From NCBI GenBank assembly GCA_021324675.1, contig JAJPIR010000084.1, positions 1-64,000 on the forward strand: 64,000 nucleotides of DNA, written 5' to 3'. The stretch comes from Actinomycetota bacterium. Its GTDB lineage: Bacteria > Actinomycetota > Actinomycetes > Mycobacteriales > Pseudonocardiaceae. The notes beneath the pieces are model-generated. The model did not search any database. It saw only the letters and a list, made by a program, of their open reading frames with translations, and had not been told where the DNA came from. Both the position numbers and the translations under genes were made by a program. Each line of letters opens with the position of its first letter. Position 1 is the first letter of the stretch. Of this stretch, positions 12,046-54,970 are shown piece after piece.

Positions 12046-12780
12046 ATGAGCGCACCTACCGCCGGGACTATCCGGCTTTCCGATCCGTCCGAGTTGATCG
12101 CCGCCGTTCCACATCTACTCGGTTTTCATCCGCACAATTCAGTGGTGGTCTTGGCACTGCATGGAAGAAGCTTGGGGCTGACCTTGCGCGCCGATGTGGT
12201 CCCGCCCGATCAGGCGCCGCAACTGGCCGAGCAGCTGCTGCGGCCGATCACGAGGTCCCGGCCCAGTGGTATCGCTCTGGTCGTTATCGGGGGCAACGTC
12301 AGTGCCAACAGTGGCGACGATGATGTGCCGCATCGCGGGCTGGTGGCTGCACTTGCTCGCGCGCTCGATCGCGCGGGGTTGCCGGTGATGCTCGCCGCGT
12401 GGACCACCGAGGTAAAGCGTGGAGCGCCATGGCGCTGTTATGACGATTCGCTCTGCGCTGGAACGGTGGCTGATCCCGCAAGTAGCCCGTTAGCGGCCGC
12501 TACAGTTGCGGCTGGTGCCGTGACGTTTAGTAGCCGACAGGAAATGGTCGATTTGCTCGCCACACACGACCCCGAAGCATTGCGACGTCGTGTTGCGCTG
12601 CTGGACGCGGCCGACGCTGAACATCCGATGAGCGCTCGGACGGTAAAGCAGCGACTTGCGCGGTTAAGGCAATTGCACGAAGCAGCTGCCGCAGGGGAGC
12701 TGGTGTTAAGTGACAGCGTCATTGCCGAGGTCGCCTCCGCACTATGCGACCACCGGGTCCGGGATGCCTGCCTGCCCTGG
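12046..12780 (+). pseudogene. DUF4192 protein, 5' portion, interrupted by element insertion
   Basis: RLSDPSELIAAVPHLLGFHPHNSVVVLALHGRSLGLTLRADV...VRDACLPW; continues in frame at 54949. Confidence 0.85.
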
Positions 12781-12797
12781 CGTTTAGTTGTGTACCT
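12749..12797 (+). other. attL
   Basis: TGCCCTGG (12773-12780) shared with attR; element-side TGTACCT arm 12791-12797. Confidence 0.85.
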
Positions 12798-12805
12798 TGA
12801 AGTCC

Positions 12806-14233
12806 ATGCGCCGAGCTGCGATCTACTGCCGGATCAGTGACGACCGGGAAGGAGCACTGCTAGGGGTCGCGCGTCAAGAAGCAGACTGTCGTGAACGGGC
12901 TACGAGGCTGGGCTGGGTAGTCGCTGGTCTGTACGTGGACAACGACCTATCGGCGTTCTCAGGGAAGACTCGTCCTGAGTACCGCAGGATGCTTGATGAT
13001 CTCCGTTCAGGTCTCATCGATGCAGTGCTTGCTTGGCACACTGATCGGCTTCACCGCTCGCCCCGTGAGCTTGAAGAGTTCATCGACATCTGCGAGAACG
13101 CCAGGGTTGGTGTCGAGACGGTGAAGGCTGGGCCAGTTGATCTCTCGACACCAGCAGGGCGAGCCGTTGCGCGAACGCTTGGAGCTTGGGCTCGCTATGA
13201 GAGCGAACACAAGGCAGAGCGGAGCCGTCGCAAGGCCTTGGAGTTGGCACAGACGGGCAAGCCGTCTGGTGGAGGTCGACCCTTTGGTTACGAAGAAGAT
13301 CGCATCACGGTGCGTGAAAATGAAGCTGAAGTCATCAGGGAATGCGTGCGGCGTTTGCTTGCGGGTGAAGCGCTACGAAGCCTAACACGCGACCTCAATA
13401 GTCGGGGAATTGTCACGTCTGCTGGAGGAGAATGGTCAACCCAGACGCTCAAGCGGGTGCTTGCCTCGGGCAGAATTTCAGGGCAACGAGATCATCAACC
13501 ACGGTCACTCACCCAAACGAAACGACACTTGATCAGAGAGATTGTGGCAGATGCAGTGTGGCCGGCGATCATTACGAAGGAGGAGACCGCAAGGGTTCGC
13601 GCGCTGCTTTTGAATCCTGAGCGGAACTCACTGGCTGCTCGCGCGAGACGGTACCTGCTGAGTGGGATCTTGCGATGTGCCTATTGTCGCGGATCTCTGT
13701 GTGGTCGGCCAACGGGCGATGGTCGGCTACGGTACTTGTGTAAGAAAGAGCCTGGCAGCAACCGGTGTGGCAAGATTTTTATTGTTGCTTCTCCTACCGA
13801 TGACTGCGTGACGGACATGGTGAAGATGGTGTTGCAGTCACCGAAGCTTGCGGAGATACTCCAAGCGAACGGCCGAAACTCAGGTGACGAGTCAGCGCTG
13901 GAGCAGATAGCCGCTGATGAGAAGAAGCTTGAAGAGCTCGCTGGAGACTACGCGACTGGTCTGATCACGCGCAAAGAATGGCTCTATGCACGTGAGTTGC
14001 TTGAAGGCCGCCTAGAGGCCGCTCGGAAACGTCTGAGTAGTAACAGCCAGATTGCGGCACTTGAGGGTCTGTACGGCGATTCTGTGCCGTTTGGCGAGAT
14101 GTGGAAAGGGTTTTCTATTGATCGTCGGCGAGCAGTGATAGCGGCCCTTTTTGAGCGGATCATCGTGCATCCGGGAGTGCAGGGACGTAATAGGTTCGAT
14201 TCGCAGCGACTTGAGCCAGTTTGGCGTGTATAA
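12806..14233 (+). CDS. large serine recombinase (integrase)
   Basis: MRRAAIYCRISDDREG, catalytic N-domain, recombinase and zinc ribbon (CAYCRGSL...YLCKKEPGSNRCG) domains, coiled coil. Confidence 0.95.
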   Translation: MRRAAIYCRISDDREGALLGVARQEADCRERATRLGWVVAGLYVDNDLSAFSGKTRPEYRRMLDDLRSGLIDAVLAWHTDRLHRSPRELEEFIDICENARVGVETVKAGPVDLSTPAGRAVARTLGAWARYESEHKAERSRRKALELAQTGKPSGGGRPFGYEEDRITVRENEAEVIRECVRRLLAGEALRSLTRDLNSRGIVTSAGGEWSTQTLKRVLASGRISGQRDHQPRSLTQTKRHLIREIVADAVWPAIITKEETARVRALLLNPERNSLAARARRYLLSGILRCAYCRGSLCGRPTGDGRLRYLCKKEPGSNRCGKIFIVASPTDDCVTDMVKMVLQSPKLAEILQANGRNSGDESALEQIAADEKKLEELAGDYATGLITRKEWLYARELLEGRLEAARKRLSSNSQIAALEGLYGDSVPFGEMWKGFSIDRRRAVIAALFERIIVHPGVQGRNRFDSQRLEPVWRV

Positions 14234-14771: not shown

Positions 14772-14960
14772 ATGAAAGCCTTTCTCAATGCTTCTGAAGT
14801 TGCGAAATTGCTCAACGTTGACCGTGCAACAGTTTCTCGTTGGTTGCACAAAGGGCTCATCCCTCGCGCCGTTCGTCTTCAGGGGAAACAGCAGTGGCGT
14901 ATCCCGATTAGCGCGTATGAGGAGCTTGTGAAGCAACAAGAGCAGTATGAGAGTCATTAG
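14772..14960 (+). CDS. excisionase-like HTH DNA-binding protein
   Basis: MKAFLNASEVAKLLNVDRATVSRWLHKGLIPRAVRLQGKQQWRIPISAYEEL. Confidence 0.85.
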   Translation: MKAFLNASEVAKLLNVDRATVSRWLHKGLIPRAVRLQGKQQWRIPISAYEELVKQQEQYESH

Positions 14961-15717
14961 CTTTTCGATCTTTAAAGGCGGAACTGGTAAAACCACGAGC
15001 AGTGTCAATACGGCAGTTGCCCTTGCGCGTAAGGGCAAGAAGGTCCTCCTTGTTGACCTCGATCAGCAAGCGAGCGCAACACGCTACTTAGACCTCGATC
15101 CCGAACAAGCGCCAAGTTTATATGACGTGTACATGGGTGCAAAGCCTGCAGCCTTAGCGATAAAGCGCACGAAGTTTGGCGTTGATATGCTGACATCAAA
15201 CGGGTTGCTCGCGGCCATCGAGGAGGCGCTTGAACCTGGCGATGAGCTAAAATTAGCGGAGTTTCTCACCCCGTTGAAGCCGACCTACGATTTTATTCTC
15301 ATCGATACGCCGCCTGGGAAGGCAATGCTGGCCTTCAACGGCTTAGCGGCAGCAGATCTTATCATCATCCCTGCATCTGCTGAACGCATGGCGGTTGATG
15401 GTGTTGCTGACCTTATCAGTCATGTGCAACGGATCATGTGGAATAAGTTCTCGCTCAGTCACCAAGAACTTCGTATCCTTTTTACCATGTATCGGGCAAC
15501 CACTGCGCACTCGCCTGCTATTGTCTCAAATGCTCGGAAAATTTGGCGTGACAATATCTTAAGTGTGAAGATACCCCATTCGACCGTGTTTTCCCGGTCC
15601 TACGACGCGAAAACACCGATGGCGCTGCTTGAACCGAAGCACAGTGGCGCTATTTCCTATGACGTCTTTGCTGACTGGTTGATTAAATATAATGATGGCC
15701 AAGTACCGGCAAGCTAA
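14947..15717 (+). CDS. parA: ParA family partition ATPase
   Basis: FKGGTGKTTSSVNTAVALARKGKKVLLVDLDQQASAT...FILIDTPPGKAML. Confidence 0.92.
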   Translation: MRVISFSIFKGGTGKTTSSVNTAVALARKGKKVLLVDLDQQASATRYLDLDPEQAPSLYDVYMGAKPAALAIKRTKFGVDMLTSNGLLAAIEEALEPGDELKLAEFLTPLKPTYDFILIDTPPGKAMLAFNGLAAADLIIIPASAERMAVDGVADLISHVQRIMWNKFSLSHQELRILFTMYRATTAHSPAIVSNARKIWRDNILSVKIPHSTVFSRSYDAKTPMALLEPKHSGAISYDVFADWLIKYNDGQVPAS

Positions 15718-15722
15718 TACTT

Positions 15723-16061
15723 ATGAAGACACCACGAGTGCATGATTTTGATCCGGATGCTGCTGGGCGGCAATTACAGAGTCCTCTTGAGGGTATGCCG
15801 ACCATCGAAAAGCCACGGCAGCAGCCACAAGCACCAGCCGTGCAGCATGCTGAACCAAATAATGGCCAACAAGCAAAACAAGCTGCGGCAAAGTCAACGC
15901 GGCGATACGTTCGGCGAACGTTTGATTACTTTGAAGACCAGATTGAGTATCTAACGCGGGTTTCATTAGAAGAGCGGTTAGCTGGAAACAACGTGACGAT
16001 GGCTTCAATGCTCAGGGAAGCTTTGGACCGCTATATCTCTGAAAAGACTTCCAAGAAATAA
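15723..16061 (+). CDS. RHH-like centromere-binding partition protein
   Basis: disordered N-terminus, C-terminal RRYVRRTFDYFEDQIEYLTRVSLEERLAGNNVTMASMLREALDRYIS, 5 nt after parA. Confidence 0.75.
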   Translation: MKTPRVHDFDPDAAGRQLQSPLEGMPTIEKPRQQPQAPAVQHAEPNNGQQAKQAAAKSTRRYVRRTFDYFEDQIEYLTRVSLEERLAGNNVTMASMLREALDRYISEKTSKK

Positions 16062-16072
16062 CTCAAACCTTG

Positions 16073-16224
16073 CAACACTATCACGCTACTACACTCGTAC
16101 ACTATCACACTACTCAACCATCACACTACGACACCATTACACCATGACACTACCACACTATGACACCATAACACCATGACACTCATACACTTATACACTT
16201 ATACACTATCACACTTAGACACTA
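16073..16224 (+). repeat. 19 contiguous 8-bp repeats (NNACACYN), candidate parS centromere
   Basis: caACACTA tcACGCTA ctACACTC gtACACTA tcACACTA ctCAACCA tcACACTA cgACACCA ttACACCA tgACACTA ccACACTA tgACACCA taACACCA tgACACTC atACACTT atACACTT atACACTA tcACACTT agACACTA. Confidence 0.9.
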
Positions 16225-16574
16225 CTACGTGTATACAGATTCATTCTAAAGTGCTTAGATATGTTCTATCGAGCAGACGAGACAGCCGCCGTTTTCCCAC
16301 AAAGGGTTTGCTCATAAAAACGGACTAGCCTACCTGTGATCGACGTGACCGAGTGACTGACCGAAGCAGTTGACTATAAGGCTACCGCTGAGACACGCGG
16401 AGAGTATGAGAGACCCATCCCGTCCTTGGACTTGTCAACAAAATTTTTTTCCGGACGCTTGCGTCGGGAAGAAAGCGAAGGGAAGGAAACGAGAGAACAA
16501 GAGAGCAGGCAATCGCAAAAACGAGCCCCTGGGGGTTGAGGGGGGAGGGGCTTGTCGTGACGACGAATACGAGA

Positions 16575-17340
16575 GGTGATCGAGCACCAGGGTTGTTCGT
16601 CGTCCTGGGCGTTGTTCGATCACCAGGTGTACCCAGGGAGCGGTCTGCGGGAGCCGTACCGGTTCAGGCCGGTAGACCAACCGTCAGAGTGTGGAGGCAC
16701 ACGGAGCCACCGTTCGGGTGGAATCTGAGCTGGAAGGAAGACGGCGCTACCTGCGCAAAGTGGGCGAGTGCCCTGCGGACACGAGGTCGGCCGCACCGGT
16801 CTCTGCGAGTCCTGGATGTGCCGCATCCTGCGGCCGACCTCGTGTCCTCTCCTCTGCCCCGCACGCTGTACTTCTCCTGATGGTTGGGTAGGTATGAGTA
16901 AGTTGGTTGATCGTTGGTTAGCTGTCCGGGGGAGCGGGGCAAAGCAGAGGCCACTCGCCCACAGGGGTAGCGCCCAAAGCGCGGGAGCCAGGCGTCGGCA
17001 TTCCTTCCAGACCTTCCTTCCGCCGCCCGGCAAATGAGAGTGCTAACGCACAGAGAGCCTCACGGCCAAAGAGTCGATGCAGGGAGTTGTGCGACTGCGG
17101 TGTGCTTGCTTCGCAAGCACGCTATGAGAGCGCTGCGCGCAGAATCTTGGTTGACATTCGGGGTGGATCCGGTCCTGCCGCTCGTTTGCTCTCTCAGTGT
17201 GTCACATGGCTTCCGCAGCTGCGTCAAGACTCCTTCGCAACGCTTCGGCCCGCTGCGGCGGCGAACCGGTATCCGGTTCGGTCTTGACCCACCAGCGCAC
17301 CATGTGTTGTTCCAATCCTGTCGCAAACGAGCGGCAGGAA
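16575..17340 (+). ncRNA. candidate large structured RNA or structured DNA locus
   Basis: no convincing ORF; many perfect nested stems, e.g. 16777-16795/16829-16847 (19 bp), 16760-16770/16952-16962 (11 bp), 16730-16739/17001-17010 (10 bp), 17173-17189/17323-17339 (17 bp). Confidence 0.6.
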
Positions 17341-17354
17341 GGAGGTGATACACC

Positions 17355-17675
17355 ATGGCAACGTACAAAATCATTCGGGTCTACGAGGTTCCCGGCAAGG
17401 ACCAAATTGAGGCGACCAACCACATGATGGAGGCACTCATCCTTCATGTAGAGCGCAGCTATCACGTAGGAGACTATGTGAAAGCACCCGAAGACCCGAA
17501 AGGGAAGGGTCGGCCGATCGATCTGACGCCGCCCAAGGGGTGGCTGAGGAGCATGATCGAGGAGCTGGTAGCGCAAGTCACTGGGCGCCCAGCGAAAGAG
17601 CAGCCGTGGCAGAAGCCCGAACTGTACAAGGGCAAGAGCATGCACGAGCTCGAACAAGAACAGGCTAAGCGTTGA
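17355..17675 (+). CDS. hypothetical protein
   Basis: strong SD aaggaggtg; 106 aa MATYKIIRVYEVPGKDQIEATNHMMEALILHVERSYHVGDYVKAP. Confidence 0.7.
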   Translation: MATYKIIRVYEVPGKDQIEATNHMMEALILHVERSYHVGDYVKAPEDPKGKGRPIDLTPPKGWLRSMIEELVAQVTGRPAKEQPWQKPELYKGKSMHELEQEQAKR

Positions 17676-17778
17676 GCGCTTACGGCTTCCCCTGACATGA
17701 ACTCGGGGGAAGCAGCAAGAGCTTAAACAGCGGTGCGGGATCCCGTTACCTGTGTTGCTGTCAAAGCCCGATGCGCCA

Positions 17779-17845: not shown

Positions 17846-18619
17846 TTACTGTGATGGATCGGGTCGCTCCCTGCTCACGGTGAGCCTGGTGACGCTGGTG
17901 GCGTGGAACTCGCGGCTCGTGCGACTTCGGCCCTCTGTGGTCTCTTCCTTGCGAACGACGTGCTGACCACTTACTTCCACCGTACGGCCGGTACGGATTT
18001 GCCGGCGAATGTGGGCTTCTTGCAGTGTCGCTGCGACATCTCCAAAGACGACAACTCGATGCCAGGTAGGGCGTCCTCGTGCATCGTGTACCGCCAACGG
18101 AAACCCACCGATCAGCTCGTCTCCGTCGGCGTCAAACCATGGATCTCGACCGAGCCGGCCTTGAAGCTGCACCTCTTCTTGTTCAGCACCTTCGGAAGAT
18201 GCTGAGGATTGCTCGTGAGGCGCTGTAGCGAGTTCTGCGGGTTGCAGTGTGAGCATTGCGGCCACTGCATCGTCTTGCGGCGCTTCGGCGGTCTGGCGAG
18301 GTTCTGGGGTGTGTGGGATGGGATGGAAGGACACCATGCCGTCACGGTGGACGAGTAGGCGAGTGCGTTGATCATCAGGTCCTTGGTCAAAGACCACGCG
18401 CCTAACCTGTTGGTTCAGGCTGTAGCCAGGTACGCGGTAGATCTCCACCCGCGCATTGGCTGTAGTGACTCTCGCAACGGCGGCGTCAGGATAGATCTCA
18501 AGAACAGCTTTGCCGTCACCAACCGCAAGGCGGTGGCCATCGCCGTGGGCAACGTCATGGGTTGTTGCTGCTTCTGTTTGCAGCGTGTCACTCACTGCGG
18601 CGCGATCAAATTCGTTCAT
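17846..18619 (-). CDS. protein with C-terminal SSB-like OB fold
   Basis: VQLQGRLGRDPWFDADGDELIGGFPLAVHDARGRPTWHRVVVFGDVAATL...GRTVEVSGQHVVR. Confidence 0.6.
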   Translation of the reverse strand: MNEFDRAAVSDTLQTEAATTHDVAHGDGHRLAVGDGKAVLEIYPDAAVARVTTANARVEIYRVPGYSLNQQVRRVVFDQGPDDQRTRLLVHRDGMVSFHPIPHTPEPRQTAEAPQDDAVAAMLTLQPAELATAPHEQSSASSEGAEQEEVQLQGRLGRDPWFDADGDELIGGFPLAVHDARGRPTWHRVVVFGDVAATLQEAHIRRQIRTGRTVEVSGQHVVRKEETTEGRSRTSREFHATSVTRLTVSRERPDPSQ

Positions 18620-18690
18620 AGGGAAGTAGCACTCAGTCATAACGAACAGCAACAATTATATGAACGCGAATTGCCTATTGTCAAGACGGT

Positions 18691-19662: not shown

Positions 19663-22401
19663 GTGGAGGACAGCGAGCGGCCGGTGGACATAGACAAGCG
19701 CAGGTCTTTGCTCGCTTGGCCGAGCGGCTACGCACGCGTCTTGAGGTGGGCACGGATGAGCAACGAAGACTTCCGCGACTTGGCTGAAAGCTTGTTCGCC
19801 CTAAGCCGACTTCCGGATATTGAGCTAGGGATGACAGTAAACGGCGATCGATGGACTTCTGACGCATACGGTCCTCTTAGTTGTTCGTGGACTAGACCTG
19901 ATGGCGAGCGCTGGACACTTGACGCAAACGGCAGAACGTTCACTGTGAGTAACGATCGCGAGACAGTACCGTCTATCGCTTTTGGAAGCGATGCTTGTCT
20001 TGAAGAGTTCGTGAGGGTGGAGCCCCTTCCACTGAAGGTTGAGCCACAACTTCTGGAGAGTGCGCTTCCGACGGCTAAGACCACGGAGACGGTCAGCCGG
20101 GATGTGGTAATTGGCGCTGATCGGAAAACTGGCAAGCCTGTAGCGTTGCCATACAAAGCGCGGGTTTTACATACGGCGATTGTTGCTAATACGGGCGCCG
20201 GTAAGTCTACGCTGCTGAGCAATTTAATATCAGCGGACTTGCGAGCCGGAACACCAGCGATGGTCATTGATCCACATGGTGATCTCGCTCATCAGGTGAT
20301 TGGTTCTGCGTCGGCTAAAGATGCGCAACGAATTATCCACCTCGATCCTTCTTGTAATCCTGTTTTTGGGTTAAATCTCCTTACTTGTTCCGATCCAAGT
20401 AATCATCGACAAGTTACTGGCGCCGTCAACAGTGTCATTGCAACGCTCAAAACACTGTATAAACAAGCGGACCAGTTCGTACCGCGACTAGAAAAATATA
20501 TCGATTTAGCCGCGCGGACCGTTATCCCAAACGGCTTAACGTTGCCGGACGTGCCGAGAGTGCTTATTTCTGATGAGTTCCGCCGATCTTGCCTTAGGAA
20601 TATTGCAGATACTGCGGTGCGGCACGCTTTGAATGAGCGGTGGATTCAGTACGATCAGCTCCGCACGCCCGAGCAGATGCAGCATATCGAAGCGGTTGGT
20701 AACCGACTTGATCGCTTATTTGCGGATGAGACTATAAGCCAGATGGCTGGCAGTCCTGAAACGACGGTTCCGTTTGAGGAGATCTTGTACGGCAACAAGC
20801 TCTTGATCTTTAGTTTGTCGTCTTCGCAAGACGTCGATGACGAATGGTTTGACCTCATTGGGGCAATGGTGCTATGTGTGTTTGCGAGAGGAGTCTTCGC
20901 CCGTCATAAGGCTGGGGTAAAGCCAGACCGGGTCCATCTCTATATTGACGAATACGAACGGTTTGCTACCACTACTACAGGGAAGATGCTCACCCAGGGA
21001 CGAAAGTTTGGGGTCGGCTTTACGTTTGCCTACCAAAATTTGAGTCAAGTAACCGACCCGAAGGTTCGCGGTGCTGTTCGAGGTGCGCGTACGCTTATCG
21101 TCGGCCGCGTATCTCGACCAGATGCCGATGAAGTCGCTGGCGAGTTCCCGTTTGAGGGGACACCGGAGTGGACGGACTGGGTGAAACACCCAACAGAAAC
21201 TGTTGACAAGAAGATAGTGGTAGCATCACCCATTACGTGGTTGTGTACCGTTGGTCACAGCGATCCGCGTGTGATTGCGGCCAGGGATATCCTATTTAGG
21301 GTTCAGTATCGTGGTGAGGGGTTGTTATCGTTGTATCGACCGGAAATGGATCCCGTACCAATTCAAATGGAGGAAGATGATCCTGAATATGTTTTGGTGA
21401 ATAAACTCCTCGCGGACGTTATGAAGGGGTTCACCCCCGCCGTCCTGCGAGCCCGGCTTCTTGAGGTACTGTATCAATTTACGAGTCCCCTCCGTGAGTT
21501 CGACGGGGGAGGACGACGTGGGGATCCGCAGTCGAGTGCTTCTTGTGTACGGCACAATGTGTTAGGAATGTCAAACGGAAACAAAAGCGACATGAAAGCG
21601 TTAGGAGAGTGGCTGGATCTGCATCTTAACGCGAGGTACAAGAAGGCATTTCTAGATGGCATTGAACCGAGTCTATTGCCGCCGTGCAGACCGGCACCCC
21701 CAGACGAGTGGTTTCGACACAGGACCAGCGTTGACGAAGACCACAATTGTGGCAAGCTGCATGTTTACTCAAATATGTTTTACAGAAATCCCTACAGTGT
21801 CGCGGATGTGTTTAGTGATGCCGACACCACCTTGGCATACGTGGCCGGAAATATTAGCAAGGAAAAGCCCAAATATGATGGCTGGGTTCGTTCGTGGGAA
21901 GCCACAGAGCAGAGACGCCGCGACACGATCGAGCATTATCGTCATGAAATCGCCATTTTACGCCGTCGTATGCGTTGTGTTGTACTGCTGTGCGAGGGTC
22001 TTGCGGAACATCCCATCTGGGAGAATTCGGGTGAGCAGATCCCGAAACGCTTCCATGTCGTTCACCCGAAGCAGCCAGAGCAAGATGCTCGGAATAAGTT
22101 CGCGGGTAGACTCGTCAACCCTGGTGACCCCGATGACCCTGATGATCAATGGATCGCGCATGTAAGGCTTCCAAGTGGTGCTCATCATGAGGTAACGCTC
22201 GCACCTCCAACTACGGACGCAGTGGATTTGTCACAAGTCGAAGCGGTAAGGGATCGCCAAAAGAAGTATGCGGCAAAACCTCGCCCGCGGCTTCAGATGA
22301 TGTCAGCTGGAAAGTCGATTGGCTCACCGCCTCACGACGACAAACCACCGTCTCCACCTGATGAACCACCGCCTATCGGGCGTCGAAGCCCGAAAAAGTA
22401 G
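19663..22401 (+). CDS. VirD4/TraG-HerA-like coupling ATPase
   Basis: Walker A VANTGAGKSTLLSNLI, AMVIDPHGDLAHQVI, VHLYIDEYERFATTTTGKMLTQGRKFGVGFTFAYQNLSQ; start may be at 19756. Confidence 0.8.
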   Translation: MEDSERPVDIDKRRSLLAWPSGYARVLRWARMSNEDFRDLAESLFALSRLPDIELGMTVNGDRWTSDAYGPLSCSWTRPDGERWTLDANGRTFTVSNDRETVPSIAFGSDACLEEFVRVEPLPLKVEPQLLESALPTAKTTETVSRDVVIGADRKTGKPVALPYKARVLHTAIVANTGAGKSTLLSNLISADLRAGTPAMVIDPHGDLAHQVIGSASAKDAQRIIHLDPSCNPVFGLNLLTCSDPSNHRQVTGAVNSVIATLKTLYKQADQFVPRLEKYIDLAARTVIPNGLTLPDVPRVLISDEFRRSCLRNIADTAVRHALNERWIQYDQLRTPEQMQHIEAVGNRLDRLFADETISQMAGSPETTVPFEEILYGNKLLIFSLSSSQDVDDEWFDLIGAMVLCVFARGVFARHKAGVKPDRVHLYIDEYERFATTTTGKMLTQGRKFGVGFTFAYQNLSQVTDPKVRGAVRGARTLIVGRVSRPDADEVAGEFPFEGTPEWTDWVKHPTETVDKKIVVASPITWLCTVGHSDPRVIAARDILFRVQYRGEGLLSLYRPEMDPVPIQMEEDDPEYVLVNKLLADVMKGFTPAVLRARLLEVLYQFTSPLREFDGGGRRGDPQSSASCVRHNVLGMSNGNKSDMKALGEWLDLHLNARYKKAFLDGIEPSLLPPCRPAPPDEWFRHRTSVDEDHNCGKLHVYSNMFYRNPYSVADVFSDADTTLAYVAGNISKEKPKYDGWVRSWEATEQRRRDTIEHYRHEIAILRRRMRCVVLLCEGLAEHPIWENSGEQIPKRFHVVHPKQPEQDARNKFAGRLVNPGDPDDPDDQWIAHVRLPSGAHHEVTLAPPTTDAVDLSQVEAVRDRQKKYAAKPRPRLQMMSAGKSIGSPPHDDKPPSPPDEPPPIGRRSPKK

Positions 22402-22440: not shown

Positions 22441-23415
22441 ATGAATCCTTCAGAAGAATCACACAGCATGGCACTGACCCACATGACCGGCACACGTATT
22501 ATGCTCACCGAGGCTGATGAAACAGTCCTTCGCGCGTTAGCGCGGTTTCACTATCTCAAAGCAAACCAGGTTAGCCGATTGCTGTATCCCAAGTTATCGG
22601 ATAACGATCGCTATGCCCAGCGTCGGCTGAAACGGTTGACGGACGCTGACTATGTGCTCAGGCTGCGAGCACTTCCAACACCCCGATACGGCCAGCCGCC
22701 GCATGTGTTTACGCTTGCCACACATGGTCGACAGCATCTCGTGGCGCTGGGTGTGCCAGTACGACCGTACTTCCGGCCGTCTGAGGAGGCTCGGGCTGCC
22801 GAGAACAATCCGCTCATGACTCACCGGTTGGCAGCGATTGACGTGCTGATCGCCGCAGACTGTCTGTGTCGCGATTACCCAGTGACCTGTCCGCGGATGC
22901 TTACCGAACGGGACTTAAAGCAGGCGCCCATACGAGTCGAGGTGCCACCTGCACCGCACGCAACGACTGAGATCCGCCGACGCACCGCAGTGATCCCTGA
23001 CGCCTGGTTCCAACTGCGCGTCGCAGATGAGGCGCCAGTGTCGATTGCGCTGGAACTTGATCGAGGGACTGAGGATCAGATGGTCTGGCGCCAGAAGGTC
23101 GCAGCGCTTGCTGTCTGGGCAGTTGGTCCGTACCGAGACGCCTTTGCCACGGACAACCTCACCATTGCAGTTGTGTGTCCGGACGCGACGCGCCGAGGCG
23201 TGTTAGCCGGCTGGACGATGCGCGAGCTTACGGGGCGTGGGCAGGAGAACCTTGCCGATATCTTCTTGTTCACCGCTGAGTCACCGGTTGCGACAAGCCC
23301 GTCGGTATTTTTCTTCGGACACCACTGGCATCTGCCATACGAGGCCAGTCCGGAGGCGCTGCTTGATCAGCCACCGGATGCTGCCAGTACGGAGACGCCG
23401 ATCTTTGCGACATGA
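22441..23415 (+). CDS. replication-relaxation family protein (MOBC-type relaxase candidate)
   Basis: winged-helix N-terminus (LTEADETVLRALARFHYLKANQVSRLLYP), PD-(D/E)xK-like PDAWF...ALELDRGTE; between two coupling ATPases. Confidence 0.7.
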   Translation: MNPSEESHSMALTHMTGTRIMLTEADETVLRALARFHYLKANQVSRLLYPKLSDNDRYAQRRLKRLTDADYVLRLRALPTPRYGQPPHVFTLATHGRQHLVALGVPVRPYFRPSEEARAAENNPLMTHRLAAIDVLIAADCLCRDYPVTCPRMLTERDLKQAPIRVEVPPAPHATTEIRRRTAVIPDAWFQLRVADEAPVSIALELDRGTEDQMVWRQKVAALAVWAVGPYRDAFATDNLTIAVVCPDATRRGVLAGWTMRELTGRGQENLADIFLFTAESPVATSPSVFFFGHHWHLPYEASPEALLDQPPDAASTETPIFAT

Positions 23416-24839
23416 GGTGGTTTACCCGCGGTCCCAGTATCCGGCTTGGTACAAGCCGGTTTTTTCTTTTTGGTAGGCGGACGCTTGCCATTAGTCCAAC
23501 GGAGGCGCGTGCTCACATCCACGTCCTGGGCAAGACTGGCTCAGGCAAGTCGTACTTTCTCGCAGGCTTGTTTCTCTCCCTCTTTGCTGCCGGTCTCCCG
23601 GCAACGCTTATTGATCCGCATGGGGATCTTGCGGAGCTCGTGTTGGCTCACCTGATCCAGCAAGGTCTCTTCGCGAACAAGGCTTCGTATGAGCGGCTCA
23701 TCTACCTTGACCTGCCAGCTGCTGCAGCGACGGAGCGCTACTTGCCGTTCAACTATCTTGCCCAACCCTACGACGACCACGCGATGGCCGAACTTGTTGC
23801 TGAGGCAGCCCGCCGAGCGTGGCCGGAGCTGGCAACCGGTGCACCGACCTTTGAGAACATCCTCAAACATTCAGTGATCGCGCTTCGGCAGAACAATCTC
23901 CCGTTGACCAAGCTTGCCGATCTGTTAACCGATGGCCAGTTTCGCAACAGCGTATTGGCTAACGTCACCGATTCCCAGGTGGTACGGTTTTTCCATCTAC
24001 GGATGGATCAGTGGGGCCGGGATGCACCGTTAATGCGAGAGTCAACGCTCAACCGCGCAGATCTGTTGACCCTCTCGCCGGTGCTCCGTTACAGCCTTGG
24101 CAGTGAGCAAAACCTGCTGTCCTTTCGCGACGTCATCGACAGCGGCACGTCTCTGATCGTCAACCTGGCGCTGCCACATCACGATGCCCGACGCCTGTTC
24201 GGCTGTTTGCTCACGGTTGGCATGGAGAGTGCCGCTTTGGCACGAGCAACCGCTCATCCGGCGAGTCGTCGGCTATCCCATCACCTGATCCTTGATGAGT
24301 TCAGCCAGTTCACGGCGCAATCAGAGCAAGCGCTTACCCGCATGCTGTCTGAGACCCGCAAATACGGCCTCTTTTGCGTCATGGCCCATCAGAACTGGTC
24401 GCAAGCCAGTGACCGGCTGCGAGGGGCGCTCCAGAACGTCGGCATCGAAGTGATCCTCAAGGCAGGCCGGATAGATGCGGAGTACTCGGCGCGCATCCTC
24501 GGCAGTGTGGACCCGATGACAGTCAAGCACGTGGTCCAAGATGAGGCAGCCGTTGAGCGTACGCACCCGACGTATCTGTCGCTCCCTGAGCAGTGGGAGC
24601 GGCAGGTGCAGGCTATCCAGCGCCTCAAAGTCGGTGAGGCCTTTATCCGGCTTGCCGATGACTCCGTGCACAAAGTCACAACACCGGCGCTGCCCACGCT
24701 GACCACTCGTCCAGAGCAACTGGAGGCAGTGCGAGCTGCGTACCTGGATCGCTACTTCGTCCCAGGTGAAGCACCACAGCCGGCACCGCACGCCGTGCCA
24801 ACGGCAACACCAATGATCAGTCGCCGACCTCCGAGGTGA
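23412..24839 (+). CDS. second VirD4/TraG-HerA-like ATPase
   Basis: HIHVLGKTGSGKSYFLAGLFLSL, LIDPHGDLAELV, LILDEFSQF, CVMAHQNWSQ. Confidence 0.85.
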   Translation: MRWFTRGPSIRLGTSRFFLFGRRTLAISPTEARAHIHVLGKTGSGKSYFLAGLFLSLFAAGLPATLIDPHGDLAELVLAHLIQQGLFANKASYERLIYLDLPAAAATERYLPFNYLAQPYDDHAMAELVAEAARRAWPELATGAPTFENILKHSVIALRQNNLPLTKLADLLTDGQFRNSVLANVTDSQVVRFFHLRMDQWGRDAPLMRESTLNRADLLTLSPVLRYSLGSEQNLLSFRDVIDSGTSLIVNLALPHHDARRLFGCLLTVGMESAALARATAHPASRRLSHHLILDEFSQFTAQSEQALTRMLSETRKYGLFCVMAHQNWSQASDRLRGALQNVGIEVILKAGRIDAEYSARILGSVDPMTVKHVVQDEAAVERTHPTYLSLPEQWERQVQAIQRLKVGEAFIRLADDSVHKVTTPALPTLTTRPEQLEAVRAAYLDRYFVPGEAPQPAPHAVPTATPMISRRPPR

Positions 24840-27315: not shown

Positions 27316-27455
27316 CCGTCAAGGGGTGACAGAACTTCCCGGCTGCCCTTCGGGCCGCTGACGCTCAGCCGATAACTGCTGCCCCTTATCCCTTGACGGC
27401 GAGCCTCTGCGGCCGTGTTTGCGGCGCAATGCGGTGGCGGGTGGTGCTCGCCACC
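27316..27455 (+). promoter_or_regulatory. structured leader, copy A (upstream of ssb)
   Basis: stem 27316-27325/27390-27399, GAGCCTCT, hairpin 27433-27455. Confidence 0.65.
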
Positions 27456-27515
27456 AAGCGTATTCCGGGCATCAGGCCTAACGAGACGGCTTGGCACACA
27501 AAGGAAGGCACGACG

Positions 27516-27938
27516 ATGTACGACAACATGGTGACCCTGATCGGGAACCTCACCGCAGATCCTGAATTGCGATACACCCCGTCTGGAGCGGCAGTTGCCA
27601 ACTTCACCGTGGCGCAAACCCCGCGAATCTTTGATCGGGTGTCCGGTGAGTGGCGAGATGGCGAGACGTTGTTTCTCCGCTGTGTCGTGTGGCGTGAGAC
27701 GGCTGAGCACCTGACGGAATCGGCAGGCAGAGGCGCACGGGTGATCGTGGTCGGCAAGCTCAAGCAGCGATCGTTTGACGTGGAGGACGGGGAGCGGCGC
27801 ACGGTCATTGAGCTTCATGCAGATGAGGTAGCGATTTCTCTGCGGTATGCGACGGCAGAAGTCACCAAGGTAACGCGTGCCCAGGGTGGAGGAGAGGGTC
27901 AGCAGAGGAGCAGTACAAACGACGAACCGCCGTTCTGA
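27516..27938 (+). CDS. ssb: single-stranded DNA-binding protein
   Basis: [39 protein letters not shown] aaggaagg. Confidence 0.93.
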
Positions 27939-33440: not shown

Positions 33441-33719
33441 TTATTTCGCATTGAGACCATTGTGGATGAACTGTTTAAGCAATGTCTGGTATGGCATGTC
33501 CAGCTCCGCTGCTTTGGCTTTCGCCTTCGCGATCCACGCGGCAGGGACGCGGATGGTGATCCGTTTGCTGGCTGGGGCTTGATGCTCGGTCAGGAAGGCG
33601 CGCAGCTCGAACGCCCGAAAGTCTGATCGATCAAAGTACTCCGCCAGATTAAGGGATGCCCACCAGTCAGACTCTTCATCTTGATTACGAAACTTTGGAA
33701 TGATTAATTTCTTCTTCAT
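33441..33719 (-). CDS. CopG/BrnA-type antitoxin
   Basis: MKKKLIIPKFRNQDEESDWWASLNLAEYFDRSDF...KRITIRVPAAWIAKAKAKAAELDMPYQTLLKQFI. Confidence 0.85.
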   Translation of the reverse strand: MKKKLIIPKFRNQDEESDWWASLNLAEYFDRSDFRAFELRAFLTEHQAPASKRITIRVPAAWIAKAKAKAAELDMPYQTLLKQFIHNGLNAK

Positions 33720-33993
33720 AAAGTGCCACCTCCTCTCTGTTGGCGGTTCGGGCAGAGATCGGTCGAATTCGTCCCTGCCGCACCGTAAACACAATGTAAA
33801 GCAACCGATGCTTACGCGTCTTGCCGAGCACGATGTACCTGTCTTCAACAACGGAATGCCGTGCATCGGGGCCAACGACCGCATGCGCATCAGCGAATGC
33901 TTCTTCAACCTCATACGGTCGGACGTCATGCTTCACCCAGAGCTTTGTGGTGTTAGCACTGTGCCAAATGAATGAATGCTTTCTCGTTGGCAT
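33685..33993 (-). CDS. BrnT-type toxin
   Basis: FIWHSANTTKLWVKHDVRPYEVEEAF...DRYIVLGKTRKHRLLYIVFTVRQGRIRPISARTANREEVALYEE. Confidence 0.85.
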   Translation of the reverse strand: MPTRKHSFIWHSANTTKLWVKHDVRPYEVEEAFADAHAVVGPDARHSVVEDRYIVLGKTRKHRLLYIVFTVRQGRIRPISARTANREEVALYEEEINHSKVS

Positions 33994-35908: not shown

Positions 35909-36658
35909 CTATTCCTTAAAGCAGGTGAGAATCAAGAAGGGGCCGATGATAGATTCATCCGTTCCGACGAAGGAATCTTTTAAGGAGGTAGGCGTGTCTG
36001 TTGCGCGCACTTCGAAGCCTACGGCCTGTAGCACATCTTGGTAATCATCGAGGGTCCAATAATGGTCTTCGACTTCTACTACGCCTTCCGGTGTCGTGAT
36101 GACGCATCGCACCCGGGAGCCGCTGGAAAGGTGTTCAATAGACCCAGTTCGTGGGAAGCTCTTATAGACATGGCCAATTGACTCTGGATTCGCGGTCATG
36201 ATAAAGAACTGTGAACTTGGTTTCAATACCCGATAGATCTCGGCACTAGCGACCACCATATCGCGCTTACTTGGTATCTCGGTATAGACGTTACAGCTGA
36301 TTGCACCATCCATAGCCTCATTCGCTACCGGTAGGGTCCGACCAATCAGTGCGTACGCTACCCGAGAAACATGCTGTTTGTTTGCGTGTTTCACCATAGT
36401 GAAGTTGTGGTCGACGCCTACTACAAAAGCTGCGCCGAGGTTGCGAAGGAAAAGGGAGCTTCGTCCTGCGCCGGCTCCGAAGTCCAGCCACCGTGTACCG
36501 GTGAGATCTCCCAACTTCTCGGCAAGGGCATCGAATCCGATTTCATAGGAGGTGCCTGCAATTTCCAGACTACCGTATGCGTCAGCATCTTCTGTCGAGT
36601 AGGTGAAGGCGTCACTACCGTGAGGGCCATTTTGCTGTCTCATGGGACACTGCCGCAT
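35909..36658 (-). CDS. class I SAM methyltransferase (copy 1)
   Basis: WLDFGAGAGRSSLFLRNLG; paralogue at 41649. Confidence 0.8.
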   Translation of the reverse strand: MRQCPMRQQNGPHGSDAFTYSTEDADAYGSLEIAGTSYEIGFDALAEKLGDLTGTRWLDFGAGAGRSSLFLRNLGAAFVVGVDHNFTMVKHANKQHVSRVAYALIGRTLPVANEAMDGAISCNVYTEIPSKRDMVVASAEIYRVLKPSSQFFIMTANPESIGHVYKSFPRTGSIEHLSSGSRVRCVITTPEGVVEVEDHYWTLDDYQDVLQAVGFEVRATDTPTSLKDSFVGTDESIIGPFLILTCFKE

Positions 36659-36885: not shown

Positions 36886-37158
36886 ATGACACACGTAGTA
36901 CGTACACATTTTATAGCACCTAAAGCGCTTATCAAAGAAGTAGATCGATTCGTCGGTCCACGTCGCAGAAGCGAGTTCATTAGTGCGGCGGTCACCGAGA
37001 AGCTTGCGCGAGAAAACCGCATTCGGGCTGTTCGGCATGCGCTCACGCTGCCAGCTGTGCGGGATGTTCCTGGTTGGGAAACGCCGGAAGCTGTTTCGAA
37101 GTGGGTGCGTGATCTCAGGGCAGACTCCGATCCAAAAGATTTGCCGCAAGACGTATGA
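36886..37158 (+). CDS. RHH antitoxin (VapB-like)
   Basis: RTHFIAPKALIKEVDRFVGPRRRSEFISAAVTEKLAREN; overlaps toxin start. Confidence 0.75.
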   Translation: MTHVVRTHFIAPKALIKEVDRFVGPRRRSEFISAAVTEKLARENRIRAVRHALTLPAVRDVPGWETPEAVSKWVRDLRADSDPKDLPQDV

Positions 37159-37550
37159 AGTACCTTCTCGACACTGACACTGTTATTGATTTCATTCAAA
37201 ACCGAGGCGAAACACGAACTCGTATCGCCGCGATGACGGAGGCCGGCGACCTCATTGGCTTGTGTGCGGTAACCGTAGCCGAGTTATATAGCGGGTTAAG
37301 TGAGAAAAACCTGCGTCTGTTCAGCGACTGGCTCAAGTCGTTGCCGTACTGGCACATCAGCCTTGAGGTAGCTATGCAAGCAGGGATCTATCGCAAAAGT
37401 GCCTCTCAGGCGGGCACAACATTGCATGTTTCAGACTGTCTTGTCGCGGCTTGTGCTCGTGAACAGGACGCCACCGTTCTGACTAGCAACATCAAGGATT
37501 ACCCGATGAGGGACGTGCGGGTCATGTCGATCAGAGAGGAGGCTTCCTGA
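37155..37550 (+). CDS. PIN-domain toxin (VapC)
   Basis: MKYLLDTDTVIDFIQ...VTVAELYSG...HVSDCLVAACAREQDATVLTSNIKDY. Confidence 0.88.
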   Translation: MKYLLDTDTVIDFIQNRGETRTRIAAMTEAGDLIGLCAVTVAELYSGLSEKNLRLFSDWLKSLPYWHISLEVAMQAGIYRKSASQAGTTLHVSDCLVAACAREQDATVLTSNIKDYPMRDVRVMSIREEAS

Positions 37551-41648: not shown

Positions 41649-42407
41649 TTATTCGGGAGATTCCTTAAAACAGGTGAGAATCAAGAAGGGGCCGATGATA
41701 GACTCATCCGTTCCGACGAAGGAATCTTTTAAGGAGGTAGGCGTGTCCGCTGCGCGCACTTCGAAGCCTACGGCCTGTAGCACATCTTGGTAATCATCGA
41801 GGGTCCAATAATGGTCTTCGACTTCTACTACGCGTTCCGGTGTCGTGATGACGCATCGCACCCGGGAGCCGCTGGAAAGGTGTTCAACTGACCCGATCCG
41901 CGTGAAGCTCTTATACATCCGACCAATTGATTTTGGATTCGCAGCCATTAGAAAAAACCGTGCACCTGGTTTCAACACGCGATAGATTTCCGCGCTTACA
42001 ATGGTCATAGCACGCTTACTCGGTATCTCGGTGTAGACACTACAGCTGATCGCACCATCCATTGACTCATTCGCGACCGGGAGGGTTTGGCCAATGAGTG
42101 CGTACGCGACCTTAGGAACACGCTGCAATTTTGCCCGCTGCACCATAGTGTAATTGTGGTCGACACCAAACACTAAAGTTGCCCCGAGGCTCCGAAGAAA
42201 AAGGGAACTGCGTCCTGCGCCCGCGCCGAAGTCCAGCCACCGTGTACCGGTGAGATCTCCCAACTTCTCGGCAAGGGCATCGAATCCGATTTCATAGGAG
42301 GTGCCTGCAATTTCCAGACTACCGTATGCATCCGCATCCTGTGTTAAGTACGTGAAGGCGTCACTACCGTGAGGGCCATTTTGCTGTCTCATGGGACGCT
42401 GCCGCAT
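41649..42407 (-). CDS. class I SAM methyltransferase (copy 2)
   Basis: near-identical N- and C-terminal blocks to copy 1. Confidence 0.8.
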   Translation of the reverse strand: MRQRPMRQQNGPHGSDAFTYLTQDADAYGSLEIAGTSYEIGFDALAEKLGDLTGTRWLDFGAGAGRSSLFLRSLGATLVFGVDHNYTMVQRAKLQRVPKVAYALIGQTLPVANESMDGAISCSVYTEIPSKRAMTIVSAEIYRVLKPGARFFLMAANPKSIGRMYKSFTRIGSVEHLSSGSRVRCVITTPERVVEVEDHYWTLDDYQDVLQAVGFEVRAADTPTSLKDSFVGTDESIIGPFLILTCFKESPE

Positions 42408-44023: not shown

Positions 44024-44281
44024 ATGATTCGAACACAAGTCTATTTAACAGAAGAACAAGCACGGGATATCAAGCTGCAGGCGCTCCGCGAGAAAAAGCG
44101 GGAAGCTGAAGTGATCCGTGAACTACTCGACAAAGGGCTTCGAGTCACTCACGCTGCAACTGGTGAGACGACTGGTCACGCGCTGATGAAGCTGGTTGAC
44201 CTTGGCAAACGCCTGGGCATGACAGGGCCAAGAGACTTATCGACGAATCTTGACGACTACCTGTATGGAGACAAAGAATAG
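44024..44281 (+). CDS. RHH antitoxin
   Basis: MIRTQVYLTEEQARDIKLQALREKKREAEVIRELLDKGLR. Confidence 0.8.
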   Translation: MIRTQVYLTEEQARDIKLQALREKKREAEVIRELLDKGLRVTHAATGETTGHALMKLVDLGKRLGMTGPRDLSTNLDDYLYGDKE

Positions 44282-44690
44282 CAACGACCGACTCATCATC
44301 GCAGATACAAGTGGGCTCCTGTCGCTCGCGATTGATACAGACGCCAATCACCACCTCGCTGTTACTGCAGCGAAGGGCTTAGCAGATAAACAGAGCATGG
44401 TTGTTGTCCCCGGCGAAATCTTCACTGAGACGATCAATGCGCTTGGCAAAAGGTTCGGCCACGCAAGAGCGATCGAAACGGCACAGACACTCACTGAATC
44501 GTCGATTTTGCTGGTTATCGACACTGACGAACTTATTCGCCTCGATGCCCTCAAAATCTTTCGAACTGCTCCGGCAGGTGTCAGTTTCACTGATTGCCTG
44601 GTCATGGCGACAGCCGACAAGTACGAAACCCGGGAAATCTTTGGCTTTGATGAGATCTTCAGCAGACAGGGCTATCAGCTGCCCAGCTGA
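44265..44690 (+). CDS. PIN-domain toxin (VapC)
   Basis: LIIADTSGLLSLAI...VVVPGEIFTETIN...SFTDCLVMATADKYETREIFGFDEIFSRQGY. Confidence 0.85.
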   Translation: METKNSNDRLIIADTSGLLSLAIDTDANHHLAVTAAKGLADKQSMVVVPGEIFTETINALGKRFGHARAIETAQTLTESSILLVIDTDELIRLDALKIFRTAPAGVSFTDCLVMATADKYETREIFGFDEIFSRQGYQLPS

Positions 44691-45392: not shown

Positions 45393-45797
45393 TCAGGCAG
45401 GCTGCTGTTCAGTGGTCGAGTCGGAACTGTTGCCCTTAGCGGTCTTCGTGACTGTTGCTATGGCGTAGCGGAGTGACACTCCGATCTCATCGACCTGAAG
45501 CTCAACAGTGGTTCGTTTCTCACCATCACGTGTTTCAAAGGATCGCTGCCGTAGCCGGCCGACCACAATTACACGAGTACCTTTGGTGAGGCTGTCTGCC
45601 AGATGCTCTGCGCTCTGCTGCCATACGGTACAGCGCATAAACAGTGTGTCCCCGTTGCGCCACTCGTTCGTTGCCTTGTCGAATGTCCTCGAAGTAGATG
45701 CGATAGTGAAGTTTGCTACCGCTGTTCCTGAACCGGTGAAGCGTACTTCTGGTTCGTCAGTCAGATTGCCGGTCAGGGTTACTGTGTTGTCTTGCAT
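45393..45797 (-). CDS. ssb: single-stranded DNA-binding protein
   Basis: [40 protein letters not shown]. Confidence 0.93.
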
Positions 45798-45837
45798 CGT
45801 GATCGTCTCCATTAGTCGTTGCTGACCCCAGAGGGCG

Positions 45838-45979
45838 GGCGGCGGTGCTCCCCGCCGCCGTAAGAGCGCCGTGCAGCAGCCATAGAGGCTCAGTACCAAG
45901 GGATCAGCAGGAAAGGTCTTGGACGAGCGGAGCGATCCCGAAGGGACGGACAAGATGTTTGCTGCCCCTTGGTACTGAG
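45838..45979 (-). promoter_or_regulatory. structured leader, copy C (upstream of ssb)
   Basis: 14-bp perfect stem 45889-45902/45966-45979, GAGCCTCT, hairpin 45838-45859. Confidence 0.7.
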
Positions 45980-46261
45980 GGATGGCTGATGCGAAGCTCG
46001 GGGTCAGCAACTGCCTGCGCTGGCACACAGAGTTCTTGGCCTGTACTGCTGGTATTGGCTGAGCCGTGATCACGTTACGAGTCCCCCGCACGAGATGCTT
46101 TTTCACCTGCACGACGTATCGACGGTAACGCCACACGACACCCAGGCTGAGTCGAGTTGTAACGACCGCTCCGGGCATCGACTTCACGATGTATTGATGA
46201 ACGTGAGGTGTATTGCAACATGTATTACCGTAAGCAATAAAGTAGCAGGGAGTCAGCAGGG

Positions 46262-46963
46262 ATGGCATGGTGCTGGGGAAACTGGGTTACGATTGATGGC
46301 CATCCTGTCTGCATCGGAAACCGCTCAGCGAAGATCACAGTAGGGATTGCCGCGACCGTTGCGCTGTCCGGCCTTGCCGGCGGCGGCTTAGGTGCCGCGA
46401 CGCCAGCGAGTGGATCGACCGGCGAATATGGTGCCAGACCGCCCCAAAGTCAGCCAAACGCACGGCCCAACGGGAATGAGCCTGAAGCAGGCCCGAGCGA
46501 AATTACTGATTCTTTCAAGGTGACAAGCCGGCTGGAAAAATTGGGCCATCGTGTTGTGAAAGTTTATGCGAAGCGTGACGACGGTAACTGTGCTGGTAAC
46601 TCCGATGGGCAAGTGCAGCGGTTCTTTCGAGAGGTGGCCGAGTGTATCTCACTCTATCGTGAAATTATCGAGGTCCAAGAAACGGCCAATACGTTCCTGT
46701 TCACGACGGCGACGATTGTGATGCCCAACCACGATACCGCATTCCGTCTTCGGCTACTGCTCGATCAGGGCGTAAACGGAGAGATCACCCGATTAGTCCC
46801 AGATCGTGGAAGATACCGCAACATGGATTGGGGCGTTACCCGAGCTACTACGAGCCTCAACAACAGCACCGTTACAACGTATGATGTTAAGATAGTCGGC
46901 CGCACGGTCGTTACTTCCGTCGCGGATTCCTTCCTAGATGAAGGTCTATCTGGTTTGCGCTAG
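46262..46963 (+). CDS. hypothetical exported protein
   Basis: hydrophobic segment [19 protein letters not shown] then soluble domain. Confidence 0.55.
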
Positions 46964-52103: not shown

Positions 52104-53567
52104 CTACCGGTCTACAGCAGTGCCGAGTTGCTGGCGTAGACGGACGATCCGTTGAGCGTTCCTGATCTGGAGTAACGCGTCCGTTGATGGATCGCATTCC
52201 CGTAAAAGGCAAAGCATCACGAGCACGTACACAGAATCTGCGAGAACATACATACCCGTGTAGCTCATGCCGACATCCTGCTGCTGGTCATGGTGAGTCA
52301 TACGGTTACGTGCTTTGGTCACTATATGAGCCCACTCTGCAGTGTCACCAACCAGCCAGGAAAATGCCTCACCAGCATAGTCGGCGAGCTCTACGAGGCG
52401 TGCGCGTAGCCGAGGCTCGTTTGCGTAAAGCAGCTGATTGTGTAGCCAGTCGGCGATCTTCGACCCGAGCATGAACTTGATTGACTTTACGATCTTACGT
52501 CGGAGTGCCCTATATTGGGCCTTAGGCATGACCTCATTCGCAAAGCGCATCCTGTGAAACGTCTCGGCCGCGGCCATTACGTTGAGATAACGATTCTCAA
52601 CGTAGATTCGAGCAGAGTAGCGGATGGTAAGAAGGGCGCCGAGCACCGGTCTATACGTGCGTGAAACCGCTATCCATCGACCAACGACACTGAGACCACC
52701 AAGCTGCTCGTACGGAAAGAACATCTGGTGCAATGACCTCGGTTTGACAGCAACGTGTACTGCGGGATTTTCTACATAGAGATCGATGGCTCTTTGGGTA
52801 TAGCCACCTTCTCCGCCCTCGTGAACGACATCCGGACGTCACAGCTTAATCTCCGTTGGGACCGAGGGTGCATCAGTCGCAAGCGTGATGAGATCCTGCA
52901 AGCCATTGAGGTCAGAGAGAATATCCGACAAGCCACGTAGTTCAGAATACTTAATCTTCAAGTGTGTCTGCTGATCGATTCGCATTGCCGCAAGACGGTC
53001 TCCTCCTACCTCCCAGGTGTGAACCAATTCCACCTTAGCTTCGTCGATCGTAACGGTCTCGGTCGGGAGGACGTCATACCGCAATCTTATTTGAGTAGTG
53101 GTGGAGAGATCGTCCGGTGTCTCCGTATCGACTTCGAGCGAGAAGCCGGATTTATCTACCCATGGAGCTAATTGATCAAACGACGCCGCCACTTCATCGA
53201 ACTCGAAATCCGCAGAATCGAAATGAGCGCCCGACAGAACCTGTAGGACTTTATAATTGTGCACTTCAATACCTGGCATTTGAATATTTGTTTGGCTGTG
53301 ATAGCAGCCATGCAAGGTCAATTCTCTGCCTCCAGCCACTCCAACGATCCGAATGGGTTCAACTTCAGGCGCCAACGTCTCGTCAACATTGACCAGCGAG
53401 CCGAAGACTTTCAACACAGTGCCATCGGCCGGTTTGTACGCCAACTGCCCAACGACGGTCCGCTCAGGCAGGCTCGGACGCCAGAAGACACCCTCCCACT
53501 CAAACGCTTCCATCTGTCTCCCTCTTGAGCTCGCTGGCGTTTCCGGAAACTGTATATTCTGAGTCAT
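52104..53567 (-). pseudogene. ApeA-like HEPN antiphage protein, split by one in-frame TGA (52839-52841)
   Basis: N-terminal FEWEGVFWRPSLPERTVVGQLAYKPADGTVLKVFG...ELTLHGCYHSQTN; C-terminal HEPN-like ARNRMTHHD; both halves share one frame. Confidence 0.7.
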
Positions 53568-54917: not shown

Positions 54918-54970
54918 AGGTACATAGCTGCACACCATGGTGCCCTGGTGCTGCGGTCCTGGTGCGGTTG
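54918..54970 (+). other. attR
   Basis: AGGTACA arm 54918-54924, TGCCCTGG 54941-54948, then DUF4192 sequence. Confidence 0.85.

Follow-up and report, generated by a model that had tools for sequence, protein, structure and literature searches.

What does a non-coding stretch of about 0.8–1 kb with a multi-branched fold do inside an actinomycete mobile element of 42 kb? The window, that is, the whole stretch of DNA analysed (64,000 nucleotides), comes from a member of the Pseudonocardiaceae, and a first-pass annotation of its sequence had offered two readings of the locus, a giant structured RNA and a single-stranded replication or transfer origin.

The folded locus and its homologues

The uninterrupted stems listed in the first-pass annotation are exact Watson–Crick matches at their coordinates, the exception being the 8-bp hairpin with the TTC loop, which exists, but at 17102–17120 rather than at 17099–17117. 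The interval contains no supported ORF, in agreement with the same source, and its fold is better than that of all shuffled sequences on both strands, with z-scores of about -5 to -6.5 under RNA parameters and of -5.5 and -9 under DNA parameters. The true feature is longer than the extent of about 765 nt (16575–17340) given initially, with conserved sequence starting near 16250. The last stem had been described as abutting the SD of the gene at 17355; indeed, the final helix stops right at the SD, and in both homologous loci it ends within a few nucleotides of it. The features of the locus and of the adjacent genes are listed in Table 1.

Table 1. Features of the folded locus and of the element around it (window coordinates)
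Feature	Position	Strand	Remark
attL core TGCCCTGG	12773..12780	.	8-bp overlap of flank alignments
Large serine recombinase, element integrase	12788..14233	+	PF00239, PF07508, weak PF13408
ParA-like ATPase	14947..15717	+	PF13614 6e-40; also VirC1 PF07015 5e-10
Small RHH-like DNA-binding protein	15723..16061	+	G1063 counterpart 44% identical over 48 aa; counterpart in Gandjariella
Imperfect 8-bp tandem repeats (ACACTATC), 17.6 copies	16075..16215	+	Tandem Repeats Finder
5' conserved block	16252..16357	+	81% identical to Gandjariella
TTGACTATAAGGCTAC	16370..16385	+	identical in G1063
Hairpin 16575–16583/16616–16624	16575..16624	+	exact 9 bp; not traced in homologues
Hairpin P2 (TACCGG/CCGGTA)	16657..16674	+	present in 3/3 loci; outermost position in the pair list is not a pair
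Mini-hairpin P3	16707..16721	+	double change at 2/4 pairs
Helix P4, closes central domain	16730–16739/17001–17010	+	in 3/3 loci, one T-A to A-T swap
Helix P6	16760–16770/16952–16962	+	exact 11 bp
Long hairpin P7, 19 bp	16777..16847	+	17/19 pairs double-changed over three sequences
Helix P8, interrupted	16851–16862/16934–16950	+	double change at 4/12 pairs
ACCTTCCTTCCG	17011..17022	+	unpaired, after P4, identical in 3/3 loci
Hairpin P10 (GTGC-TAAC-GCAC)	17040..17051	+	double change at 2/4 pairs
Hairpin P11, TTC loop (minus strand C(GAA)G)	17102..17120	+	7/8 pairs double-changed
3' domain helix E1	17174–17189/17323–17338	+	window vs Gandjariella
3' domain helix E2	17203–17209/17300–17306	+	window vs Gandjariella
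3' domain helix E3	17220–17230/17281–17291	+	window vs Gandjariella
SD AAGGAGGTGA	17339..17348	+	directly 3' of E1
Protein of unknown family, 106 aa	17355..17675	+	adjoins locus in 3/3; 42% and 49% identical to homologues
SSB-domain protein	17846..18655	-	PF00436; G1063 45% identical, syntenic
HerA/TraG-type ATPase	19663..22401	+	DUF87, TrwB_AAD_bind; syntenic in G1063
Replic_Relax protein, candidate nicking/relaxation factor	22441..23415	+	PF13814 7e-18; G1063 54% identical
VirD4-like coupling ATPase	23412..24839	+	G1063 67% identical, syntenic
attR core TGCCCTGG	54941..54948	.	interrupted DUF4192 gene resumes here

Among 100 relatives searched at the DNA level, a match came from Gandjariella thermophila (G026), whose gene order is that of the window: an RHH-like gene, then a foldable stretch of diverged sequence, then a homologue of the 17355 protein. 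The profile of the small protein, applied to 392 genomes of the family, yielded one further locus, in genome G1063, so that 3/392 genomes are positive in all. Both homologues come from other genera of the Pseudonocardiaceae, as judged by genome grouping, and both are likewise flanked by an RHH-like gene on one side and by the same small ORF on the other. The G1063 element is syntenic with the window from the RHH-like gene through the VirD4-like ATPase. The Gandjariella locus (L007) retains the RHH-like gene, the folded region and the small ORF, and no homologue of the VirD4-like ATPase is found in this 97%-complete assembly; hence conjugation genes may be dispensable for the module.

No additional homologues turned up in samples of the order, class and phylum, which makes the family either rare or sparsely sampled. 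The covariance model R1, run with Infernal under strict filters on 397 Actinomycetota genomes, matched the window alone. A search of 385 genomes of the class with the VirD4-like protein (E<1e-30) had the same outcome; the 912-aa ATPase proved too unspecific as a query. Weak matches in genomes G047 and G080 were rejected, as they appear to be coding and unrelated.

In twelve helices aligned over up to three sequences, 44 of the 109 aligned positions are changed on both sides with the pairing kept, and of 293 helix cells 283 are Watson–Crick, one is G–U and three are A–C, these counts coming from three sequences in all and from a hand alignment that is biased to clean pairing. The 3' domain, compared between the window and Gandjariella, has nine double compensatory pairs out of 34, a count reached by one of 500 shuffles, while slid pairings give 0–1. 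Since the two homologous loci have the same helices with different sequence, the structure is not due to chance.

Some of the unpaired segments between the helices are invariant, in particular ACCTTCCTTCCG, which repeats the 3' strand of P4 and, judging by its letters, could alternatively pair with the SD. All three loci also share TATAAG, a possible -10 element, at the left edge of the structure. It was missed by the sigma-70 scan because the scan rule demands T at position 6; in Gandjariella it lies in a hairpin loop, and in the window and G1063 in no clear duplex. Scans for promoters and terminators gave nothing clearly above chance in the folded region. Two more hairpins, AAGCGTTGAGCGCTT and GCTTCCCC/GGGGAAGC, are situated 3' of the small ORF, at 17667–17715; they recur with paired changes after the G1063 homologue and are not seen in Gandjariella.

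Structured RNA or structured DNA

The large RNA families of Rfam (GOLLD, ROOL, OLE etc.), proposed initially as a check, do not match the locus: there is no match in the 64-kb window at the gathering score, and at E-values up to 10 the window and Gandjariella loci produce only chance microRNA- and sRNA-type matches far below the threshold. Phage, plasmid and IMG/VR sequences, searched at the DNA and protein levels and with structure-derived patterns, yielded nothing related; the 36 pattern matches from IMG/VR were rejected by folding and motif content. A group II intron and HEARO were dropped, as they had no match whatever.

As controls we used RNase P and tmRNA of the three genomes that carry the locus. 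The consensus energies of the plus and minus strands are -187.5/-169.4 for RNase P and -137.8/-121.8 for tmRNA, that is, the sense strand is better by 16–20 kcal/mol in both RNAs, whereas those of the locus are -191.9/-197.1. Over the whole locus the minus strand is better by 5–11 kcal/mol; hence there is no preference for the supposed sense strand. The single-sequence z-scores agree with the consensus strand result for RNase P and are noisy for tmRNA.

Among pairs that are Watson–Crick in the window, the changed cells of RNase P comprise seven replacements by G–U and 16 by another Watson–Crick pair, against one and 51, respectively, in the locus, where two more are replaced by A–C (Fisher p 0.0008 for G–U versus Watson–Crick, a comparison weaker than its p-value because the hand alignment of the locus helices favours clean pairing). 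The counts of G–U versus A–C among single mismatches of folds restricted to Watson–Crick pairs were uninformative. The fractions of A and T at unpaired positions are 0.33–0.41 and 0.13–0.17 in RNase P and 0.25–0.31 and 0.26–0.28 in the locus; unpaired positions of tmRNA are less A-rich than those of RNase P. None of the 49 predicted plus-strand hairpin loops of the locus is GNRA, compared to several such loops per RNase P molecule. The minus strand, on the other hand, carries C(GNA)G loops in several hairpins (GAA in the window, GGA and GCA in G1063, GGA in Gandjariella), a pattern noticed after the fact; such loops form a class of extraordinarily stable DNA mini-hairpins (PMC4686876). Overall, the general signs of structured RNA, that is, sense-strand preference, G–U pairs, A-rich unpaired positions and GNRA or UNCG loops, were not seen in the three sequences set against these controls. 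Taken together, the strand, G–U and loop results from these three sequences point to a structure selected in DNA.

It is therefore rather unlikely, in our estimate, that the locus is a structured RNA of about 0.95 kb transcribed from a plus-strand promoter near 16378 and serving either as leader to the small ORF or, on its own, as an ornate RNA of a new family. Such an RNA would account for the strongly conserved structure, for TATAAG conserved at its left edge, for the last helix at the SD in all three loci and for the invariant ACCTTCCTTCCG with its potential to pair with the SD, and the plus-strand MFE folds of the three loci are richer in G–U (37/21/30) than the minus-strand ones (18/17/17). 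However, the signs that RNase P, and for the most part tmRNA, display are missing: there is no sense-strand preference, the conserved pairs contain almost no G–U, and the loops are neither A-rich nor GNRA. Rfam, too, gives no match at a useful score. Within the initial pair of readings, the gene context and the lack of RNA signs thus support the single-stranded origin, the giant RNA being the less favoured member.

Two further readings place the function in duplex DNA or deny it. The inverted repeats might be cruciforms or duplex protein sites of a double-stranded oriV or centromere of the excised circle. The ParA-like gene, the RHH-like gene and the 8-bp repeats directly upstream would fit this, as would the T-rich stretch near 16445 and the strand symmetry of the fold, expected from a duplex inverted repeat; but duplex protein sites normally keep their sequence, and here it is rewritten freely while the pairing is kept, and nested multi-branch pairing across 280 nt is hard to use as a duplex, so that we regard this reading as improbable. 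Even further down the scale, and hardly credible to us, are functionless palindromic repeats in which template switching would correct imperfect palindromes and so keep them perfect. Two-sided changes without G–U intermediates are the expected trace of quasi-palindrome correction, but three elements have the same helices in the same order and place, separated by unpaired motifs that do not vary.

The element and the proposed role of the locus

The locus belongs to an integrated element of 42.17 kb (12773–54948) that interrupts a DUF4192 gene, the empty site being present in four congeneric genomes. The left-flank alignment to the four empty sites stops at 12780–12783 and the right-flank alignment begins at 54941; the DUF4192 ORF at 12046–12840 matches profile positions 1–245 of 321 alone. 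Near the right end of the element, at 52104–53567, there is an ApeA-type anti-phage protein, apparently split into an N-terminal and a HEPN piece. The element also contains a pair of highly similar methyltransferase genes separated by about 5.7 kb (35909–36658 and 41649–42407) and likely toxin-antitoxin genes encoding two PIN-domain proteins and a CopG-type antitoxin (37155–37550, 44250–44690 and 33441–33929).

Upstream of the locus, the RHH fold of the small DNA-binding protein is assigned by size and sequence, the protein having no Pfam match. The 8-bp tandem repeats next to it are candidate RHH binding sites or a candidate centromere; short repeats occur near the RHH-like gene in the homologues too, with a sequence different from that of the window. 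In G1063, an opposite-strand AAA_22/TniB-like ATPase (L071:8088–8918) stands in place of the ParA-like protein. Downstream, the 106-aa protein has no match in Pfam, NCBIfam, PHROG or PADLOC, and its model, built from three sequences (pLDDT 72), no fold match. SSB-domain genes are found three times in the element, at 17846–18655, 27393–27938 and 45393–46268. The "MOBC-type protein" of the first-pass annotation was not found, the closest candidate being the Replic_Relax protein (PF13814) at 22441–23415, which has a PHROG match to "replication initiation by nicking". It is also the only candidate from Pfam scans of about 29 ORFs of the element, none of which matched a canonical relaxase family.

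What is observed directly is a conserved fold that retains its pairing rather than its sequence and shows no RNA-like signs, together with the neighbouring genes and the integration of the element. We give about even chances to the locus being a cis-acting site of an integrated, probably conjugative element that acts in the single-stranded form, as a single-strand origin (sso), an ssDNA promoter or an oriT. Once nicked and unwound for transfer or rolling-circle replication, the element DNA would be single-stranded, and the single strand would fold into the conserved multi-branched structure. Second-strand synthesis and/or early transcription would then start from the folded strand, which would be located within the origin of transfer or next to it. 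The RHH-like and ParA-like proteins, placed on the adjacent repeats, could help to mark or tether the site, in the manner of the RHH factors of relaxosomes. Processing and export of the strand would fall to the products of the genes just downstream, the SSB-like, Replic_Relax and VirD4-like proteins. We infer the single-stranded action, the choice among the three origin roles and the parts of these proteins. The end of the structure at the SD of the small ORF speaks against a DNA origin, as it fits an RNA leader too; against an oriT speak the lack of a matched canonical relaxase in the element and of a recognised nic consensus at the locus. More tentatively still, the locus may represent a new class of very large (0.8–1 kb) conserved ssDNA architecture, much larger than every known sso or ssDNA promoter, that is the start of transfer or replication, via Replic_Relax, in a family of actinobacterial ICEs with no recognised relaxase.

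We know of few if any examples of a natural, conserved, elaborately folded ssDNA of about 0.8–1 kb. If confirmed, the proposed role would reveal how transfer or replication begins in mobile elements that have no recognised relaxase, and the locus offers a concrete test system. More generally, a strongly covarying structure alone is not proof of RNA, and strand preference, G–U use and loop composition should be compared with those of an established RNA from the genomes in question.

Comparison with known systems

The locus far exceeds the known single-strand origins and Frpo in size, these measuring a few hundred nucleotides at most. The ornate RNAs GOLLD, ROOL and OLE (PMC12286853) resemble it in size, multi-branched fold and, for some, mobile-element context, unlike which the locus has no Rfam match, no RNA strand preference and no G–U or loop signs. 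In pCF10 (PcfF/PcfG, PMC6514445), an RHH protein brings the relaxase to oriT; with such an oriT the locus shares repeats and hairpins near transfer genes and, if the assignment from size and sequence holds, an adjacent RHH-type gene, but it has no recognised canonical relaxase or nic site, Replic_Relax being the sole candidate.

The Frpo/ssi ssDNA promoters of conjugative plasmids are found upstream of SSB genes (PMC11541004). Like them, the locus is predicted to fold as ssDNA directly 5' of a small gene and has an SSB gene in its vicinity; it is, however, much larger, has its neighbouring SSB gene on the opposite strand and keeps TATAAG outside any clear duplex in the window and G1063. The function of an sso can depend on structure over sequence, and ICEBs1 has an sso (PMC4595007). 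Compared to the sso of rolling-circle plasmids and to sso1 of ICEBs1, the locus is several times larger and multi-branched, and its role is predicted from sequence. As in these origins, the structure outlasts the sequence in a mobile element with several ssDNA stem-loops: the locus is predicted to fold as ssDNA, with structure kept and sequence varying. What is unusual in it as a candidate ssDNA-acting site is its size.
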